The notes beneath the pieces are model-generated. The model was not told where the DNA came from and did no database searches. It was given only the letters and a program-made list of their open reading frames with translations. DNA of 64,000 nucleotides from Methylophaga marina (GTDB lineage: Bacteria; Pseudomonadota; Gammaproteobacteria; Nitrosococcales; Methylophagaceae), in contig NZ_AP027741.1 of assembly GCF_030296755.1 (NCBI RefSeq), positions 1,612,001-1,676,000 on the forward strand, given 5' to 3'. Shown here in pieces: positions 1-35,082 of the stretch. The translations under genes and the position numbers were made by a program. Positions within the stretch are counted from its first letter, which is position 1. Every line of letters begins with the position of its first letter.

Positions 1-339
1 ATTCATCTTGCTGTCGGCAATGGCCGATATTACGGTGGGGGCAATATTGTTGACCAGCGTTCTACCTTAGTAAACGGTCAGCTTCATTTGTTTTTTATCA
101 AGCCACGACCATGGTGGCAATTGTTATTATTGGGGCCTAATTTACGTGATGGGGCATTGGCAAATGAGCGTCATATCGTGCGTCACTCTGCTCAACACTT
201 TAGTATTTACACCTCTAAACCCAAAGAGCTGGAAGCTGATGGTGAATTTAAAACCACGACCCCTGTCGAATTTGAGATTATCCCTGAAGCCATAGAGGCA
301 ATTGTCGGGGACATACCTACCGATTCTGGAGACGTTTAA
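1..339 (+). CDS. YegS/BmrU-type lipid kinase, 3' end only
   Basis: The frame is open from base 1 and stops at 339, giving about 112 C-terminal residues. The start lies outside the window. The segment resembles the C-terminal beta-sandwich domain of diacylglycerol kinase-family lipid kinases (YegS/BmrU): an AVGNGRYYGGG stretch, then KPRPWWQLLLLGPNLRDG, HFSIYTSKPKELEADGE and a TTPVEFEIIPEAI ending. Family members phosphorylate lipids at the inner membrane using ATP. The ATP-binding GGDGT motif expected upstream is not in view. The next gene begins one base after this stop, so the two are probably co-transcribed. Confidence 0.8.
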   Translation: MHLAVGNGRYYGGGNIVDQRSTLVNGQLHLFFIKPRPWWQLLLLGPNLRDGALANERHIVRHSAQHFSIYTSKPKELEADGEFKTTTPVEFEIIPEAIEAIVGDIPTDSGDV

Positions 340-340
340 T

Positions 341-775
341 ATGTCGATAATACGAACAGATGCACAGGCTGATGCCCTGGAAATTCTGAAATTACTCATA
401 CAAACAGTCGATTTTTACCGTGCAATGGGTGAGGAATTAAGCAAAGAAAATATTCAGCACCCGCTATTTGATATTGCAGACGAACGTGAAGCGTTCATTA
501 CCTCTTTTCAGCAAGTCACCAAAGAACTCGGCGACTTACCCTCCACACCCGATGCCGACAGAGAATGGATTGAAGAAATTGGTGGGAAACTGACTCAACT
601 CTTTTCGGATGATCCTAAACAGACAATTGAAGAAAAATGCCTTGAGAAGGATGAAGTACTGGCCAACCTTGTTAACACCACCACACTCGGTGAACAATCA
701 GCAGAAATAAAGCAACGCCTAGACTCACTCGAGCAACACCTGAAAAGCTCAAAAGCGCGTTTAGCTGGTGACTAG
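341..775 (+). CDS. hypothetical helical protein
   Basis: A 144-residue protein, acidic and predicted largely helical (ALEILKLLIQTVDFYRAMGEEL near the N-terminus, then Glu/Lys-rich helices to the end). I do not recognise the family with confidence. The overall look, four amphipathic helices without signal peptide or membrane segment, is compatible with small four-helix-bundle proteins of the DUF2383/PA2169 kind, but this is a guess. The ATG at 341 is preferred over an in-frame upstream start at 302, because it has GGAG nine bases upstream and does not overlap the lipid kinase gene. It follows that gene at a one-base gap and may share its transcript. Confidence 0.6.
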   Translation: MSIIRTDAQADALEILKLLIQTVDFYRAMGEELSKENIQHPLFDIADEREAFITSFQQVTKELGDLPSTPDADREWIEEIGGKLTQLFSDDPKQTIEEKCLEKDEVLANLVNTTTLGEQSAEIKQRLDSLEQHLKSSKARLAGD

Positions 776-956
776 TTAGAACGCGATAGTTTGATATTAA
801 AACTGAACCCGAAGGATGCCAATGTGCTGGCACTATTTTTCACCCTACGCTTTAACGGTTGGCCTCATAACTCTCTAAATAAAAAATGACTTTCATTAAT
901 AATCAACGTGTTAGACTTTCTAGAAAGGAATTATAAGGCCGCCTGTTTAATATTTA

Positions 957-979
957 TTATGAGGCTAGTGGCCTCATAA
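957..979. repeat. inverted repeat (hairpin) between genes
   Basis: TTATGAGGC (957-965) and GCCTCATAA (971-979) form a perfect 9-bp stem with a 5-base loop. The same GCCTCATAA also occurs at 862-870, as a direct repeat 109 bases upstream. No T-tract follows, so a terminator is doubtful. It sits just before a GTTAGGC at 988-994, which matches the GTTRRRY integron core-site consensus. Confidence 0.5.
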
Positions 980-1020
980 AACACTCTGTTAGGCTAAAAA
1001 AATAATATCGGAGATTCAAA

Positions 1021-1782
1021 ATGCAAAATGTTGCAACGCCACTGTATCTAGACTGGTCATTTTGGGCTGTTGTAGTTGCATTTGCAGCGATGGTTCTATC
1101 TCAACTCCCTCCAATACATGTAATGTTAAAACGAGCCAAACTTGATTTAGAACTATATTCTAAGATATCTATTACGCATAAGCTTGGGAATCCGAATCTC
1201 CAATTGCATTTGATCCTTAATAATATTGGAGGTCGTCGAGTCAGAATAAAAGACCTAAAGGTGTCTATCTCAAAAGATGGAACGCATTTAGCAAATTTGC
1301 CAGCACAAAATTACTTGCAGAATCAAAATGATCAGAATACGGTCCTCTTTACTACTTTTGCTCTGGAGCCTAACGACGAATGGGCGCATATTACAAACTT
1401 TCTCAACTTTTTTAACAGAGACGACGAGAAAATTTATCAAAAAATTGAAGGCGACTTACTTACTGACTTTAGATCACACAAAAAAGAAACAAATGATGAA
1501 GGGAATAAAGAGGAATTATATGAGCATCCTGATGAGCTCGTGAGTCCTGCATTTGATTTTTTCGAAAAGCACTTCTGTTGGAATGCTGGTGAATATAATA
1601 TGTCGATTATCGTCACAACTGACACAAAATCAGCTGATATAACTAAAAACTACAGATTCACAATATTCGAGTCTCACACAGAAGCCCTGAGTGCTATAAA
1701 GGATTACTTTAAATACGGTGGCGGCTTGTATTGGAACCCAAAAATTCAAACAAGCGTAATCCTTGAAGTATCTGAAGCCTAA
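1021..1782 (+). CDS. hypothetical membrane-anchored protein in a cassette-like unit
   Basis: A 253-residue protein with one N-terminal membrane segment (about residues 12-32, WSFWAVVVAFAAMVLSQL). A soluble, probably cytosolic beta-rich domain follows with no family I recognise. It has a CGGAG ribosome site upstream and is AT-rich compared with the core genes of the window. The stop codon is embedded in GCCTAAC (1777-1783), the left end of a long imperfect palindrome resembling an integron attC site. The gene is preceded at 988-994 by GTTAGGC. Together these suggest a gene cassette: one promoterless ORF plus its recombination site. Function unknown. Confidence 0.65.
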   Translation: MQNVATPLYLDWSFWAVVVAFAAMVLSQLPPIHVMLKRAKLDLELYSKISITHKLGNPNLQLHLILNNIGGRRVRIKDLKVSISKDGTHLANLPAQNYLQNQNDQNTVLFTTFALEPNDEWAHITNFLNFFNRDDEKIYQKIEGDLLTDFRSHKKETNDEGNKEELYEHPDELVSPAFDFFEKHFCWNAGEYNMSIIVTTDTKSADITKNYRFTIFESHTEALSAIKDYFKYGGGLYWNPKIQTSVILEVSEA

Positions 1783-1894
1783 CAACCAGCTCTAGGCAGG
1801 CGCCCAAACGTACGTGCTTTTTGTGGGGTCGCTGTGCTCACTTTACCAAAAAAAGCCCTCCAGTTTAGGCGATGGTGAGCTGGGCATTATATGC
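1777..1894 (+). repeat. attC-like imperfect palindrome (integron cassette recombination site)
   Basis: The left end GCCTAAC (1777-1783) fits the RYYYAAC core consensus and contains the stop codon of the preceding gene. Nested complementary arms follow: CCAGCTC (1786-1792) with GAGCTGG (1877-1883); CGCCCAAAC (1801-1809) with GTTTAGGCG (1863-1871), one mismatch; GCTTTTTGTGG (1816-1826) with CCAAAAAAAGC (1846-1856), one mismatch. The apical loop is about 19 bases. The right end GCATTATATGC (1884-1894) is a poor match to GTTRRRY, so the site may be decayed. No integrase gene is visible, so this would be an integrase-less cassette remnant. Confidence 0.5.
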
Positions 1895-2050
1895 TTAGGT
1901 CATCCAGGTCTCATAAAACTTCAAGTTGACATCAAATTATCCGTCAATCAAGATACGCGAATGAACACAAATCGTACGCAAAATGTAGCTCGAATTATTA
2001 TCATCATTCCATAGGAATGGTGGGATTTTTGATGCGTTGAGAATTTATCA

Positions 2051-2078
2051 AACCCGCCCTAGAGGCGGGTTTTCTGTT
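2051..2078 (+). terminator. Rho-independent terminator
   Basis: CCCGCC (2053-2058), loop CTAGA, GGCGGG (2064-2069), flanked by AA/TT pairs and followed by a T-rich tract. It ends transcription from the left before the kinase-like gene at 2117. Confidence 0.8.
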
Positions 2079-2116
2079 TCTGCCTCCGGGGATTAATCTT
2101 ATTTGGAGGAGCTAGA

Positions 2117-2641
2117 ATGAAAAAAATAGCTGTATTCGGTAAGCCTGCTAATGGAAAGTCAACTTTAAGTAAGAAGCTAGCATTAGCTACAGGTATAAAA
2201 TTGTATGCCTTGGATTCAATTTTATATAAACCAAATGGAGAACAGGTAGACCGAAAGAGCTACGAAGAACTCCATGAGAGCATTCTTTCTTACGAAGAGT
2301 GGATCATTGAGGGCTTTGGCCCAATGGATTCAGTGGAGTCGTTTAATAAGCGGCTAGAAGAAGCTGATACTTTGATTTATGTAGAATTACCGTATTTTGT
2401 CACTTATTGGTTAGTGACGAAGCGCTTTCTAAAGGGCCTATTCATAAAGCCAGAGGGCTGGCCCGAAGGAAGCTCGGTTTTAAAGGGAACGCTGGAGAGT
2501 TATAAAGTGTTGAAGCTTTGTCCCAAATTTTGGAATGATCGGTTTATGCAAAGGTTAGAGAAACTATCGGCTGATAAATCACTACATGTTATTCGCACAG
2601 TTTCTGAGTTAAATAGCTTTGTAGAGAGACATGTGCAATAA
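2117..2641 (+). CDS. P-loop nucleoside/adenylate kinase-like protein
   Basis: A 174-residue protein with a Walker A motif GKPANGKST at residues 8-16. The LDSILYKPNGE region looks like the substrate-binding part of small P-loop kinases (adenylate kinase / FlaR 'topology modulation' type). A Walker B-like segment, DTLIYVELP, lies near residue 93. It probably binds ATP and phosphorylates a small molecule, but the substrate cannot be read from the sequence. GGAGG lies 7 bases before the ATG. The gene stands alone behind a terminator, in the AT-rich accessory strip where all genes but the last are on the plus strand. Confidence 0.7.
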   Translation: MKKIAVFGKPANGKSTLSKKLALATGIKLYALDSILYKPNGEQVDRKSYEELHESILSYEEWIIEGFGPMDSVESFNKRLEEADTLIYVELPYFVTYWLVTKRFLKGLFIKPEGWPEGSSVLKGTLESYKVLKLCPKFWNDRFMQRLEKLSADKSLHVIRTVSELNSFVERHVQ

Positions 2642-2756
2642 ACAGCACATAACAGACTGTTAAAATCAACAGAGTCAGAATGTTTGATTTTAGCCTTTTT
2701 TACACTGACCCAAATAATTAGGGATTTTAATTTCAATCATTAAGGACAACACTATC

Positions 2757-3350
2757 ATGCTAAAAAATTACATTAAGCACGCACATCATTTTCTTTTTAT
2801 TGTTCTGGCAAGCATCTCCATGCAAGCCCTCGCTTCGGATAGCCTTATTCCTGAGCGTATTGAGTCGTTTGAAATTAATGGTCTTTCGCTTAACTCCTCA
2901 GTCGAAGAGTTCAAGGAACTCACAAAGAATGGCTTTAAATGTAGAGTTAAGGATCGTTTTGATGTTAATTATTGGACATGTCGTTCTAACCAGAAACAAA
3001 AAAACAAGATAAAGCTAATAGTGGGCGTTGATAACAATAAAATCGTATCAATTAACTACTCCAGTCAAAGCACCACAAATTCATTTGCTCAGTTAAGAAG
3101 TGACACCGCAGAATTGAATCAGGTATTGCTCGAAGAAGGTTTCGCTCACACAGGAAGAAATCCGAACGACAAAGAAATCTTTTTTTATAACAATGATGAA
3201 TCGCCTGTCACGTCTAAGACAGAAATGTTTCTTAAGACTACGCTTGAGTGTTCAATGGAAAAACCAAGTATCTATGGCTTGGAAGTCACAATAATGACAG
3301 TTGGCCAGCTTGATAACGTCGGCGTGACGATGTACAAAATGCACTGCTAA
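2757..3350 (+). CDS. hypothetical secreted protein
   Basis: A 197-residue protein with a Sec signal peptide (HHFLFIVLASISMQALA, cleavage near residue 26). The mature periplasmic part has four or more cysteines (FKC near 62, WTC near 72, LEC and the terminal HC), which could form disulfides. Family not recognised. The FEINGLSLNSSVEEFKEL segment resembles small periplasmic proteins of unknown function. It has no obvious operon partner; the next gene, also secreted, starts 76 bases later with its own ribosome site. Confidence 0.6.
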   Translation: MLKNYIKHAHHFLFIVLASISMQALASDSLIPERIESFEINGLSLNSSVEEFKELTKNGFKCRVKDRFDVNYWTCRSNQKQKNKIKLIVGVDNNKIVSINYSSQSTTNSFAQLRSDTAELNQVLLEEGFAHTGRNPNDKEIFFYNNDESPVTSKTEMFLKTTLECSMEKPSIYGLEVTIMTVGQLDNVGVTMYKMHC

Positions 3351-3426
3351 CAAAATTAAGTTGGCAGACCTTTGAGCTAGTACTGTGTTTCCTGTTATCA
3401 ATCATATTTATATGAGAGGGTTTCCA

Positions 3427-3972
3427 ATGAATTCAGCATCATTTAGTCAAATCGTCAAAACCATACTGACACTGTTGTTCATAGCCACAAATCTGGTTCC
3501 AATCGCCTCTGCGCGACAGGACTTACCTGAGTTAACAGCGGAACTGAAACAGAAAGCTATGGAGTGTCGTGCTGCACGCAGCGACTGTTTGCAAGCGTGT
3601 AATTTTCCATCGCGGGAGCTTGAGCGTGGCAGGGAGGTAGCGGATGCCGATATTCAAGCCTGCCGGGACGCCCATGCCAAGCTCGTACCTCAAACAACAC
3701 CTGAACCAACATGGACGCCTGAATATGCTTCGATTCCGGATGTGGTTGGCGTCTTACGCTTTGGATCCTCAGTTAATGCAAAAGGGCGTGATGATTGGAA
3801 GCGTTATTGCCGGTCAGCCGCTATAGTCGGTGACGGTGCGCCGTTGGATATACCTAAAGGCGCCACCGTGAAGGTGTCAGGGATTCGTTATGTGACCAAT
3901 CCTATTAATACCTTTGACTGGAGTAAGAACGCCTGCCGTGCAGATAGTGTTGAGGTTCTCACGACCCCCTAA
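3427..3972 (+). CDS. hypothetical secreted cysteine-rich protein
   Basis: A 181-residue protein with a signal peptide (TILTLLFIATNLVPIASA, cleavage near residue 29). An N-terminal helical region of the mature protein contains spaced cysteines (MECRAARSDCLQACNF, then DIQACRDAH), suggesting a disulfide-linked helical hairpin. The C-terminal half is unrecognised. The ATG at 3427 is chosen over an upstream in-frame start at 3385, because AGAGGG sits 8 bases before it and the signal peptide begins properly there. Function unknown. Confidence 0.6.
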   Translation: MNSASFSQIVKTILTLLFIATNLVPIASARQDLPELTAELKQKAMECRAARSDCLQACNFPSRELERGREVADADIQACRDAHAKLVPQTTPEPTWTPEYASIPDVVGVLRFGSSVNAKGRDDWKRYCRSAAIVGDGAPLDIPKGATVKVSGIRYVTNPINTFDWSKNACRADSVEVLTTP

Positions 3973-4041
3973 TTATTGTGGAGCTTGGTACAACGGTGAT
4001 GAGACATAATCAGTTGAAGTGTTGCCTTTGCCAGAAGCTAG

Positions 4042-5412: not shown

Positions 5413-6909
5413 ATGTGCCAGAGCAAATCTGACCAACCAGTTTACGTTGAAAGCGTTTTAGAACAGAAACTTAAACTGCTTTTTACGGCGAGCATTTTTT
5501 CTATCGCCATCAATGCCTCGCTAGGTTTGATACTGATTATTGTTCAACTCCCGGTGACGTCAATGTCGACCTCCTTGAGCTGGTACGGGGTGTTGGTGAT
5601 TGTTTTGATCTCAAGATGTATTTTGTTGGTGTGCTGGCATAGAGATCATAACAAAGCAGAAATTAATCAGACTAGATGGCTACAGTACTTTCGTTTCAGT
5701 GTTTTGATGTCGGGCACCATCTGGGGAATAGGTGGCGTCATCCTGATGCCTCATGACAATATTGCCTATCAGGCATTTTTGTCATTTACCATTGGCGGGA
5801 TAGCTTCGGGTGCAATGGCATCACTCTCAGTGGATCGGAGATCGGTAGTGGCTTTCGTTCTTCCCACCATGCTGCCACATATTGTCATTCTTATTGGGCA
5901 AGGTGAAACGATAACATACGGTATGAGCGCCATGCTGGTGCTTTTTTTATTGTTTATCTTTCTGGCGGCTAAAAAATCAGGCGAAACCTTCCTGGAAAAT
6001 GCAAGGCTACGTATCAAAGCATTAGAAAGCGAATCACGCTTGCGAATGATGTTGGACTTTAGCCCCACTGCGGCATCCATTATTGATATCGACACACAAG
6101 AAGTGGTCTTTGCGAATAAAAGTTATGCCGCTTTAATCGAAAAGAAACATCAGGAAGCTTTAGGAGTCACGCTTCGACGTTATTATGCAAATAAGGTTGA
6201 ATACGATGATACGGTGAAGTTAATTGAGTTCGGTCAGCAAGTGAATAATCAATTAGTTGAACTGCACTTCCCTGATAGCCAGCAAACAACGAAATGGGCT
6301 CTCGCCTCCTATCTTCAAATTGAATATCACAGCAAGCAAATGATTTTGGCTTGGTTTTACGATATTACAGATAGAAAAGTCATGGAGGAGCATGCCCAGC
6401 ATCTCGCTCATCACGATGCACTGACCGGGTTGCCAAATCGGATCTTATTCAGAGAACGGCTGCACTTGGCGATGACCATGGCAGAGCGGGATAAATACGC
6501 CTTAGCCTTAATGTTTATCGATTTGGATGAATTCAAACCGATTAATGATACCTACGGACACGATGTGGGGGATGCGGTGTTGATTCAGTGTGCCGAACGC
6601 ATCCGTGACTGTCTCCGTAAACCGGACTCCGTCGCCAGACTCGGTGGTGATGAGTTCGTCGTGTTGCTGCATAAAGTCAGTGATGAACAGGCAGCCATCC
6701 AGGTTGCTGAGAAAGTATTGGAGTCATTGCAAAGCCCCATGACATTTGAAGATTTAACTGTCAGCGTCGGAGCCAGCATTGGCGTGGCGCTCTACCCTGT
6801 GCATAGTACAGAAGAGGATGGGCTATTAAATTGTGCTGACTTTGCTATGTACGAGGCGAAAAGAAATGGGCGAAACCGGGTCAGGTTGTTTCAGAATGAG
6901 TATAAGTAG
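5413..6909 (+). CDS. membrane PAS-GGDEF diguanylate cyclase
   Basis: A 498-residue protein. The N-terminal ~200 residues form about six membrane segments (LLFTASIFSIAINASLGLIL, then MLVLFLLFIFLAA and others), a MASE-like sensory membrane domain. A PAS domain follows (about 215-325, MLDFSPTAASIIDID). The GGDEF domain (about 340-495) has DALTGLPNR, FIDLDEFKPIND and an intact RLGGDEF active site. It makes cyclic di-GMP from two GTP. RKPD five residues before GGDEF is a canonical RxxD inhibitory I-site, so product feedback is expected. It is transcribed alone. The signal sensed is unknown. Confidence 0.88.
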   Translation: MCQSKSDQPVYVESVLEQKLKLLFTASIFSIAINASLGLILIIVQLPVTSMSTSLSWYGVLVIVLISRCILLVCWHRDHNKAEINQTRWLQYFRFSVLMSGTIWGIGGVILMPHDNIAYQAFLSFTIGGIASGAMASLSVDRRSVVAFVLPTMLPHIVILIGQGETITYGMSAMLVLFLLFIFLAAKKSGETFLENARLRIKALESESRLRMMLDFSPTAASIIDIDTQEVVFANKSYAALIEKKHQEALGVTLRRYYANKVEYDDTVKLIEFGQQVNNQLVELHFPDSQQTTKWALASYLQIEYHSKQMILAWFYDITDRKVMEEHAQHLAHHDALTGLPNRILFRERLHLAMTMAERDKYALALMFIDLDEFKPINDTYGHDVGDAVLIQCAERIRDCLRKPDSVARLGGDEFVVLLHKVSDEQAAIQVAEKVLESLQSPMTFEDLTVSVGASIGVALYPVHSTEEDGLLNCADFAMYEAKRNGRNRVRLFQNEYK

Positions 6910-34095: not shown

Positions 34096-35082
34096 TTAGG
34101 CATCGGTGTTGTCGTTAACAATGACCCTGTTTCTACCGGTGTCTTTTGCGCTATACAGCATGCGATCAGCCGTTTGAAGTAAACTCGATTGTGTTTGGCC
34201 TGGTTGATATTCCGTCAGTCCAATACTACAGGTCAATGAAATATCGTGTCCGTCTTGCTGACAAAATGAATGTTGCTCAACGTCCAGCCTAATACGTTCA
34301 GCGAGGCTTTTTGCCTCATTCATGTCCGTCTCTGGAAGAATTAATAGAAACTCTTCGCCCCCATAACGTCCAAGGTGGTCACTGTGTCTGGACACGTTGG
34401 ATATAATTTGAACAGCTTCCGTTAACACAACATCACCCTGTTGATGCCCATATTGATCATTGACGTATTTGAAGTGATCTAAATCAACCATTAATAGACT
34501 TAATGGACGTTTGTAGCGGGTCGCGCGATCAATTTCATCCGTCAAGCAGGACATCAAGCCCCCTCGATTTAACACGCCTGTTAATGCATCTGTGCGCGCT
34601 AACTCTTCTAGTTCTTTGGTTCGTGCTTCAACTCGTTGTTCTAATAATTGATTGGCTTCAAGTAACTCTTTTTTAGCCAGTAATAATTGCTCATTTTTAA
34701 CTTTAAAGTCTTTAATACTGGGAAAAGCAATGACTTTGGGAAGTAAATATACAATCATCACCGTGGTGGTAATAGAGACGATACCAGTGATGAGTTTTGC
34801 CATACCACTGATGTAGTAATACCCATGCCAGATATTAATCAGGTTAATGAGGTGAGTAACGCCGCAGAGAAAAATAAAAGCGGCAAACATGACAAAAATC
34901 CAGTTGAAAGCAAAATCATTTCTTTTTTTGACAAGCTGGATAAGGGCGATAGGGATGAGAAAGTAGGCCATCACCGTTAGTGCATCACCCACCACATGAA
35001 GAAAAAGTAAGTCACTCTGCCATTTGTAACAATGACCGTGGGGCATAAAACTGCCATCAAATAGCTCATTGATGATATTCAT
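34096..35082 (-). CDS. diguanylate cyclase with ethylene-receptor-like membrane sensor
   Basis: 328 residues. The N-terminal ~120 residues form three membrane helices that resemble the ethylene-binding domain of plant ETR1: HVVGDALTVMAYFLIPIALI then FAAFIFLCGVTHLINL. Asp33, Cys73 and His77 fall where ETR1 has Asp25, Cys65 and His69, with the same +8 offset. The Cys/His pair holds the copper ion that binds ethylene. A coiled-coil linker (about 125-160) leads to a GGDEF domain with DALTGVLNRGG, MVDLDHFKYVND and RYGGEEF. RHSD, five residues before GGEEF, is an I-site. It makes cyclic di-GMP, possibly in response to ethylene or another small olefin/copper ligand (inference). Confidence 0.88.
   Translation of the reverse strand: MNIINELFDGSFMPHGHCYKWQSDLLFLHVVGDALTVMAYFLIPIALIQLVKKRNDFAFNWIFVMFAAFIFLCGVTHLINLINIWHGYYYISGMAKLITGIVSITTTVMIVYLLPKVIAFPSIKDFKVKNEQLLLAKKELLEANQLLEQRVEARTKELEELARTDALTGVLNRGGLMSCLTDEIDRATRYKRPLSLLMVDLDHFKYVNDQYGHQQGDVVLTEAVQIISNVSRHSDHLGRYGGEEFLLILPETDMNEAKSLAERIRLDVEQHSFCQQDGHDISLTCSIGLTEYQPGQTQSSLLQTADRMLYSAKDTGRNRVIVNDNTDA

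Follow-up and report, generated by a model that had tools for sequence, protein, structure and literature searches.

An ETR1-type ethylene-binding domain joined directly to a diguanylate cyclase domain in Methylophaga marina and other Gammaproteobacteria

What does an ethylene-binding domain (EBD) of the ETR1 type do when it is attached to an enzyme of cyclic di-GMP synthesis? The window analyzed here, the whole stretch of 64,000 nucleotides of Methylophaga marina DNA, encodes such a protein, and both bacterial ethylene receptors known so far are histidine kinases. An earlier note on this DNA had set the gene against ethylene sensing by a cyanobacterial histidine kinase, which is indeed known, and to this must be added the sensing demonstrated in Azospirillum brasilense (PMC11819568). 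Varied outputs of bacterial EBD proteins are recorded in a 2020 review, and among the titles, abstracts, and passages listed by searches of open-access full text we saw none describing an EBD-GGDEF fusion protein, most subscription papers lying outside that search. Both the input and the output are known, and it is their combination that appears to be new.

Domains of the fusion protein and the seven-residue site

The protein gives a strong match to the Pfam model ETR1_N (111.1 bits versus a curated cut-off of 27, E 3.3e-32), so the ETR1-type domain that the earlier note had recognized by eye is recovered by HMM search, and a match to GGDEF (156.1 bits, E 8.2e-46). No third Pfam domain appears at E 0.001, and no histidine kinase or kinase-like output was found, the Pfam matches being ETR1_N and GGDEF only. 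Across the whole 3.1-Mb genome the ETR1_N model matches a single place, the fusion gene itself, and it matches none of 14 control genomes; the score, the single place, and the empty controls together argue that this is not a chance match. Coordinates of all features are collected in Table 1.

Table 1. Features of the EBD-cyclase gene, with positions in the window
Feature	Residues	Position	Strand	Basis or conservation
EBD-diguanylate cyclase fusion gene	328 aa	34096..35082	-	Open reading frame with ATG start; Pfam ETR1_N and GGDEF
N-terminal motif FMPHGHCYKW, predicted periplasmic	12-21	35020..35049	-	HGxC kept in most bacterial EBDs examined
ETR1-type ethylene-binding domain (EBD)	25-119	34726..35010	-	Pfam PF25487; AF2 helices; hydropathy
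Asp33 (ETR1 Asp25)	33	34984..34986	-	Invariant 16/16; D 86/88, E 2/88 in the A4 alignment
Cys73 (ETR1 Cys65), predicted Cu(I) ligand	73	34864..34866	-	88/88 in the A4 alignment; 56/59 in the HMM-found set
His77 (ETR1 His69), predicted Cu(I) ligand	77	34852..34854	-	88/88 in the A4 alignment; 54/59 in the HMM-found set
Signaling helix, TM3 to GGDEF	123-163	34594..34716	-	AF2 helix
GGDEF diguanylate cyclase domain	163-319	34126..34596	-	Pfam PF00990; Foldseek to solved GGDEF domains
RxxD inhibitory (I) site, R232-D235	232-235	34378..34389	-	R232 and D235 invariant 16/16
GGEEF active-site motif	241-245	34348..34362	-	GGEE invariant 16/16; fifth letter F or Y

AF2 predicts transmembrane helices at residues 23-53, 60-83, and 89-118, followed by the signaling helix and a GGDEF fold, with a mean pLDDT of 89.8 and a pTM of 0.57, a value at which the arrangement of the domains in the full-length protein is not predicted. 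A second model, of residues 1-130, agrees with the first in keeping Cys73 and His77 together on the same helix, four residues apart, where the earlier note had asked whether the fold would separate them. Loop charges (the positive-inside rule) and hydrophobic windows place the N terminus outside. In Foldseek searches the GGDEF part of the model resembles solved cyclases, and no match to an EBD structure was seen at E 0.001 or better, the VIA-align rows being varied helical proteins; a profile sequence search likewise returned no solved EBD structure at E up to 1.

Asp33, Cys73, and His77, proposed earlier as the equivalents of ETR1 Asp25, Cys65, and His69, lie at a constant offset of +8, and the string CGVTHLIN is present as claimed. 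Four more binding positions of ETR1 fit the same offset (Y40, I43, P44, and I70), such that D33/Y40/I43/P44/I70/C73/H77 correspond to ETR1 25/32/35/36/62/65/69 and 7 of 7 are kept, in a comparison made by residue numbers and the Pfam model and not by the ETR1 sequence. We count both Tyr32 and Asp25 among the seven ETR1 binding positions. Ethylene binding is reported to need seven residues (PMC11819568, PMC6682694), with C65, H69, I35, P36, and I62 named as essential in ETR1 (PMC6586836) and the copper site given as Asp25/Cys65/His69 (PMC12643061). On the basis of its sequence, the membrane domain is a member of the ETR1-type EBD family with a complete seven-residue site.

Membership of this family alone is no proof of ethylene binding, since some relatives lack the copper Cys or His. 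Seven of the 59 HMM-found EBDs, all in other bacteria, are of this kind; the replaced residues are seen in L117, L120, L121, L129, L152, L153, and L155, the last a weak match that is perhaps no true EBD. With Cys or His replaced, these relatives are unable to bind copper as known EBDs do, and they have another role or are degenerate. The proteins that share the direct fusion also have residues of their own near the site. Gly32 stands beside Asp33 in 16/16 of them versus Ser in 64 of 72 other EBDs, and T36, L50, N83, G87, and G100 are likewise specific to the group, which suggests that the ligand of the fusion group may differ.

Just before helix 1 lies a further motif, HGxC (here MPHGHC), which is found in 49 of the 59 HMM-found EBDs, about as often as the seven known residues, whose counts run from 47 to 56 of 59. 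The string FMPHGHCY also served as one search seed for the first EBD relatives (L002-L081), so the conservation of HGxC in that set is biased. A raw table of HGxC against the copper pair CxxxH reads 47/4 against 2/5 (Fisher p 5e-4; 58 of 59 scored, L094 left out). Coupled loss of the two motifs was considered and is kept as a lead only, being not significant once relatedness is allowed for: the tree offers three independent pairs on starred branches (six on all branches), and on average 1.2 of the 3 go in the same direction. The motif is possibly a copper-entry or disulfide site, and no mention of MPHGHC was found in the literature searched.

The cyclase half appears intact at every position checked. 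The GGEEF motif and I-site read earlier from the sequence are both present, RxxD lying five residues ahead of GGEEF. D200, K205, N208, D209, H213, D217, K313, and R317, among which we assume the catalytic positions to lie, are invariant in all 16 EBD-GGDEF proteins and with R232 and D235 of the I-site make ten such positions; GGEE is invariant too, and the domain is predicted to make cyclic di-GMP. Between the two halves, the 50-residue linker P115-D165 is gap-free in 16/16 proteins at 50-98% identity to the window protein, and this fixed length would fit a rigid helix that signals from TM3 to a pair of cyclase domains.

Relatives and distribution of the EBD

An EBD scan of genome contigs gave 240 relatives among 274 pattern matches, and the best 80 of the 240 (L002-L081) were used. 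These 80 loci and 11 longer stretches of related genomes yielded 91 frames, of which seven (L003, L014, L040, L053, L070, L075, and L109) were excluded because the frame was short, cut, or interrupted, and the remaining 84 frames plus the window protein were grouped by reference-domain matches, followed by a Pfam check. Group A1, with EBD and GGDEF only, has both domains in 16/16 members. These are 316-336 aa long and come from Methylophaga, Arsukibacterium, Aliiglaciecola, Halioglobus, and other Gammaproteobacteria, including the non-pathogenic isolates M. aminisulfidivorans MP (L007) and Aliiglaciecola lipolytica E3 (L009). In group A2 (n = 12, mostly about 750 aa), EBD and GGDEF occur in 12/12 and EAL and PAS in 11/12 each, while among the 57 members of group A3 HATPase_c is found in 52 and HisKA in 44. 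The seven EBD residues, GGEE, R232, and D235 are invariant across the 16 A1 proteins, some of which are close kin: L002, from a Methylophaga MAG, shows 98% identity with the window protein over the full length and 99% within the EBD, and L007 (84% in the EBD) and L108 share an EBD.

In a tree of the EBD, the direct EBD-GGDEF form makes up one side of a branch with an SH-aLRT of 99 (17 rows), and the fusion is thus no singleton and forms one supported gammaproteobacterial clade. The tree is of the quick kind, built from 92 EBD columns with the seven binding positions left out; columns are scarce relative to rows, several of its branches are long, and many of its forks are open. The EBD-GGDEF-EAL group (15 rows, a label that includes L031, which has GGDEF without EAL) shows nine changes on the best tree, of which at least two are forced by starred branches, in a count that set aside 23 of 133 rows with cut frames and that does not separate gain from loss. 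These proteins, from Methylophilaceae and others, carry the same EBD joined to cyclic di-GMP enzymes, and they differ from the direct fusion in the PAS and EAL domains that most of them possess and in falling elsewhere in the tree. GGDEF and EAL matches were recovered for L115 and L110 in longer stretches, their first loci having been cut at about 3.3 kb, and a single genome of the wider family (L107) carries EBD-GGDEF-EAL. Members from Methylophilaceae, which are other methylotrophs, as is the source of the query itself, are L029, L034, L035, L041, L055, L068, and L073.

Among 370 genomes sampled from the class, 15 have an EBD over the cut-off (19 at E 0.001), and among 397 from the phylum 31 do (33 at E 0.001), own genome included in both cases. 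Within Methylophaga, 14 of 24 genomes have one EBD match each, 10 of GGDEF type (counting the same-species genome G779, typed by a 348-aa frame only, and G012, which carries the stop codon described below) and four of hybrid-kinase type, and both types in one genome were found in none of the 24. The EBD is absent from 10/24, and from 5 of the 17 genomes with a completeness of 90% or more and little contamination. In M. sulfidovorans DSM 11578 the orthologue has a TGA at codon 21, the position of Trp21 (L003 6061-6063; also L094), between the HGxC motif and helix 1, and the remaining frame is open. This could be a recent loss, a downstream restart, or a sequence error. The stop and the 10 genomes of the genus without an EBD indicate that the function is dispensable.

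The EBD hybrid histidine kinases of four other Methylophaga (L099-L102) share the input domain and the genus with the fusion protein, and they form a separate starred clade apart from it. The three that were scanned (L099, L100, and L101) have EBD, PAS, HisKA, HATPase, and receiver domains, with Hpt in two. In L100, the kinase gene (119-2917, minus strand) is divergent from a receiver-GGDEF gene (3073-4011, plus strand), a pair that is possibly a two-component route to cyclic di-GMP. No GGDEF gene adjoining the EBD kinase was found in L099, L101, or L102; L101 and L102 have GGEEF-bearing frames some kilobases from it. A CHASE-domain hybrid kinase directly follows the EBD hybrid kinase in L099 (9043-12075), which places two sensors of hormone-receptor type side by side, and a similar long frame occupies the same place in L102 (1410-4841).

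A search of plasmids with the EBD gave 18 records, seven of them from Azospirillum. We identify L163, from A. brasilense Sp7, as AzoEtr1 because its 525-residue frame begins with the peptide of the published primer. Its N-terminal EBD is 42% identical to that of the fusion protein, with all seven residues and HGxC common to both, and it also has Thr at position 36, like the fusion group. AzoEtr1 differs in its PAS and histidine kinase domains, its length of 525 aa, and a neighboring response regulator gene, whereas in the fusion protein GGDEF sits directly on the helix. Residues 1-130 of AzoEtr1, cloned from Sp245 and identical there to Sp7, show saturable ethylene binding (PMC11819568). Plant ETR1 and the Synechocystis receptor SynEtr1 (Slr1212), for which the comparison was by residue number and Pfam model only, likewise have the EBD in common with the fusion protein and differ in their kinase outputs (GAF, HK, and in some a receiver). 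The MHYT membrane cyclases resemble the fusion protein in joining a transmembrane sensor to GGDEF, with a different sensor domain. The same is true of the 5TMR-LYT membrane cyclases (PMC10653868).

Gene neighborhood and genome context

Six of the 17 loci, all of them Methylophaga and the window among them, have a GTPase gene and a gene of family F1, presumably DUF2868-like, upstream, and a DUF4174 gene occurs in five of these six. Outside the six, the neighbors of the EBD-cyclase differ, and no ethylene or copper genes recur beside it among the neighbors scanned. The gene neighborhood thus gives no functional support. In the promoter scan the gene showed one promoter-like site, on the opposite strand and below the shuffled mean, and the terminator scan found none.

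A TonB-dependent receptor gene is convergent to the EBD-cyclase in four relatives (L003 7084-9147, L007 7079-9112, L108, and L004), and at this place the window has an antiporter gene. Copper import beside the gene was considered and is not supported: the two full-length receptors scanned, those of L003 and L007, pass the siderophore model TIGR01783. That of L004 is a partial frame and scores below the TIGR01783 cut-off, and the receptor two genes upstream in Arsukibacterium (L006) reaches no NCBIfam family cut-off (copper model 21.7 bits versus 472).

GGDEF matches in the genome number 52 (one falls below the cut-off, and some are pieces of one frame) and PilZ matches seven, which makes the fusion protein one input among many. 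Matches to Cu-ATPase are also present, two of them over the cut-off. A second GGDEF domain lies within the window itself, at 6406-6879 on the plus strand, in a 504-aa open frame.

A proposed ethylene switch, its alternatives, and its meaning

We consider it probable, with some reservation, that the protein is a one-component membrane sensor-enzyme in which ethylene, in a Cu(I)-dependent manner, switches cyclic di-GMP synthesis. The domain scores, the complete seven-residue site, the likeness to AzoEtr1, the invariant cyclase positions, the gap-free linker, the predicted helices and loop charges, the fall of cyclic di-GMP under ethylene in A. brasilense, and the GGDEF, PilZ, and Cu-ATPase matches of the genome all support this reading. 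Weighing against it are the low pTM, the group-specific residues near the site, the uninformative neighborhood, the interrupted or missing gene in the genus, and the relatives without a copper ligand. In a dimer, the three-helix EBD would coordinate Cu(I) by Cys73 and His77, and Asp33 would lie close by. Ethylene would bind at the copper, and the signal would travel along TM3 and helix 123-163, whose length is fixed, to the paired cytoplasmic GGDEF domains, altering the rate of cyclic di-GMP synthesis, with product feedback through the I-site. An inverse-agonist model is described for the plant, Synechocystis, and Azospirillum receptors, with responses down to 1 ppb (PMC11819568), and by that rule we expect that the ethylene-free form would be on and that ethylene would lower cyclase activity. 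Cyclic di-GMP would then fall in the presence of ethylene, and cells would tend to motility.

The same site could instead report copper, with Cu(I) occupancy and not ethylene setting the cyclase of a membrane copper-to-cyclic-di-GMP sensor. In its favor, conservation among the seven positions is highest at Cys73 and His77, the second conserved motif, HGxC, is on the predicted periplasmic side, and Cu(I) alone is described as rigidifying ETR1 as far as its C-terminal part (PMC12643061). We nonetheless think it unlikely, since the equivalents of I35, P36, I62, and Y32, which are needed for ethylene binding, are invariant in 16/16 as well, no copper gene recurs beside the fusion gene among the genes scanned, and the Cu(I) Kd given for ETR1, about 1.3e-15 M (PMC12643061), is tight for a reversible copper sensor.

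It is also unlikely that the Cu(I) site of this marine clade reads some other small soft ligand, be it a different alkene, carbon monoxide, or a volatile compound of sulfur (dimethyl sulfide, for example). The group-specific residues beside Asp33 and in the TM2-TM3 turn (G32, T36, N83, and G87) speak for such a ligand, soft thioethers and carbon monoxide bind Cu(I), and several Methylophaga use methylated sulfur compounds; against this, all seven ethylene-binding residues are kept, as they are in AzoEtr1, which has Thr36 too. Many membrane cyclases have no known input, and the interrupted frame in M. sulfidovorans and the genomes of the genus without an EBD might be read as signs that the membrane part serves solely to anchor and dimerize the protein, with a cyclase that is constitutive or governed by transcription and product feedback. 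Neither the invariance of the seven binding residues over 16 proteins down to 50% identity nor the gap-free linker would be expected of a mere anchor, and we regard this explanation as improbable.

If the ethylene switch operates as proposed, the fusion protein would do in a single step what happens by an unexplained route in A. brasilense, where cyclic di-GMP falls on exposure to ethylene (PMC11819568). Because the EBD is physically joined to the cyclase, the link between ethylene and cyclic di-GMP becomes testable in one purified enzyme. More tentatively, and with less confidence than in the switch itself, the fusion protein may be a single-protein ethylene-to-cyclic-di-GMP switch and one of several separate ways in which bacteria have coupled ethylene sensing to cyclic di-GMP, the others being EBD-GGDEF-EAL proteins and possibly a kinase pair of the L100 type.

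For the organism, the fusion protein may let a marine methanol-eating bacterium sense a gas and change accordingly between a swimming and a settled state. Ethylene sensing, so far seen in cyanobacteria and plant-associated bacteria, would then extend to heterotrophs and methylotrophs of the sea, and marine Gammaproteobacteria that live on phytoplankton products could read ethylene from algae or from sunlit organic matter.
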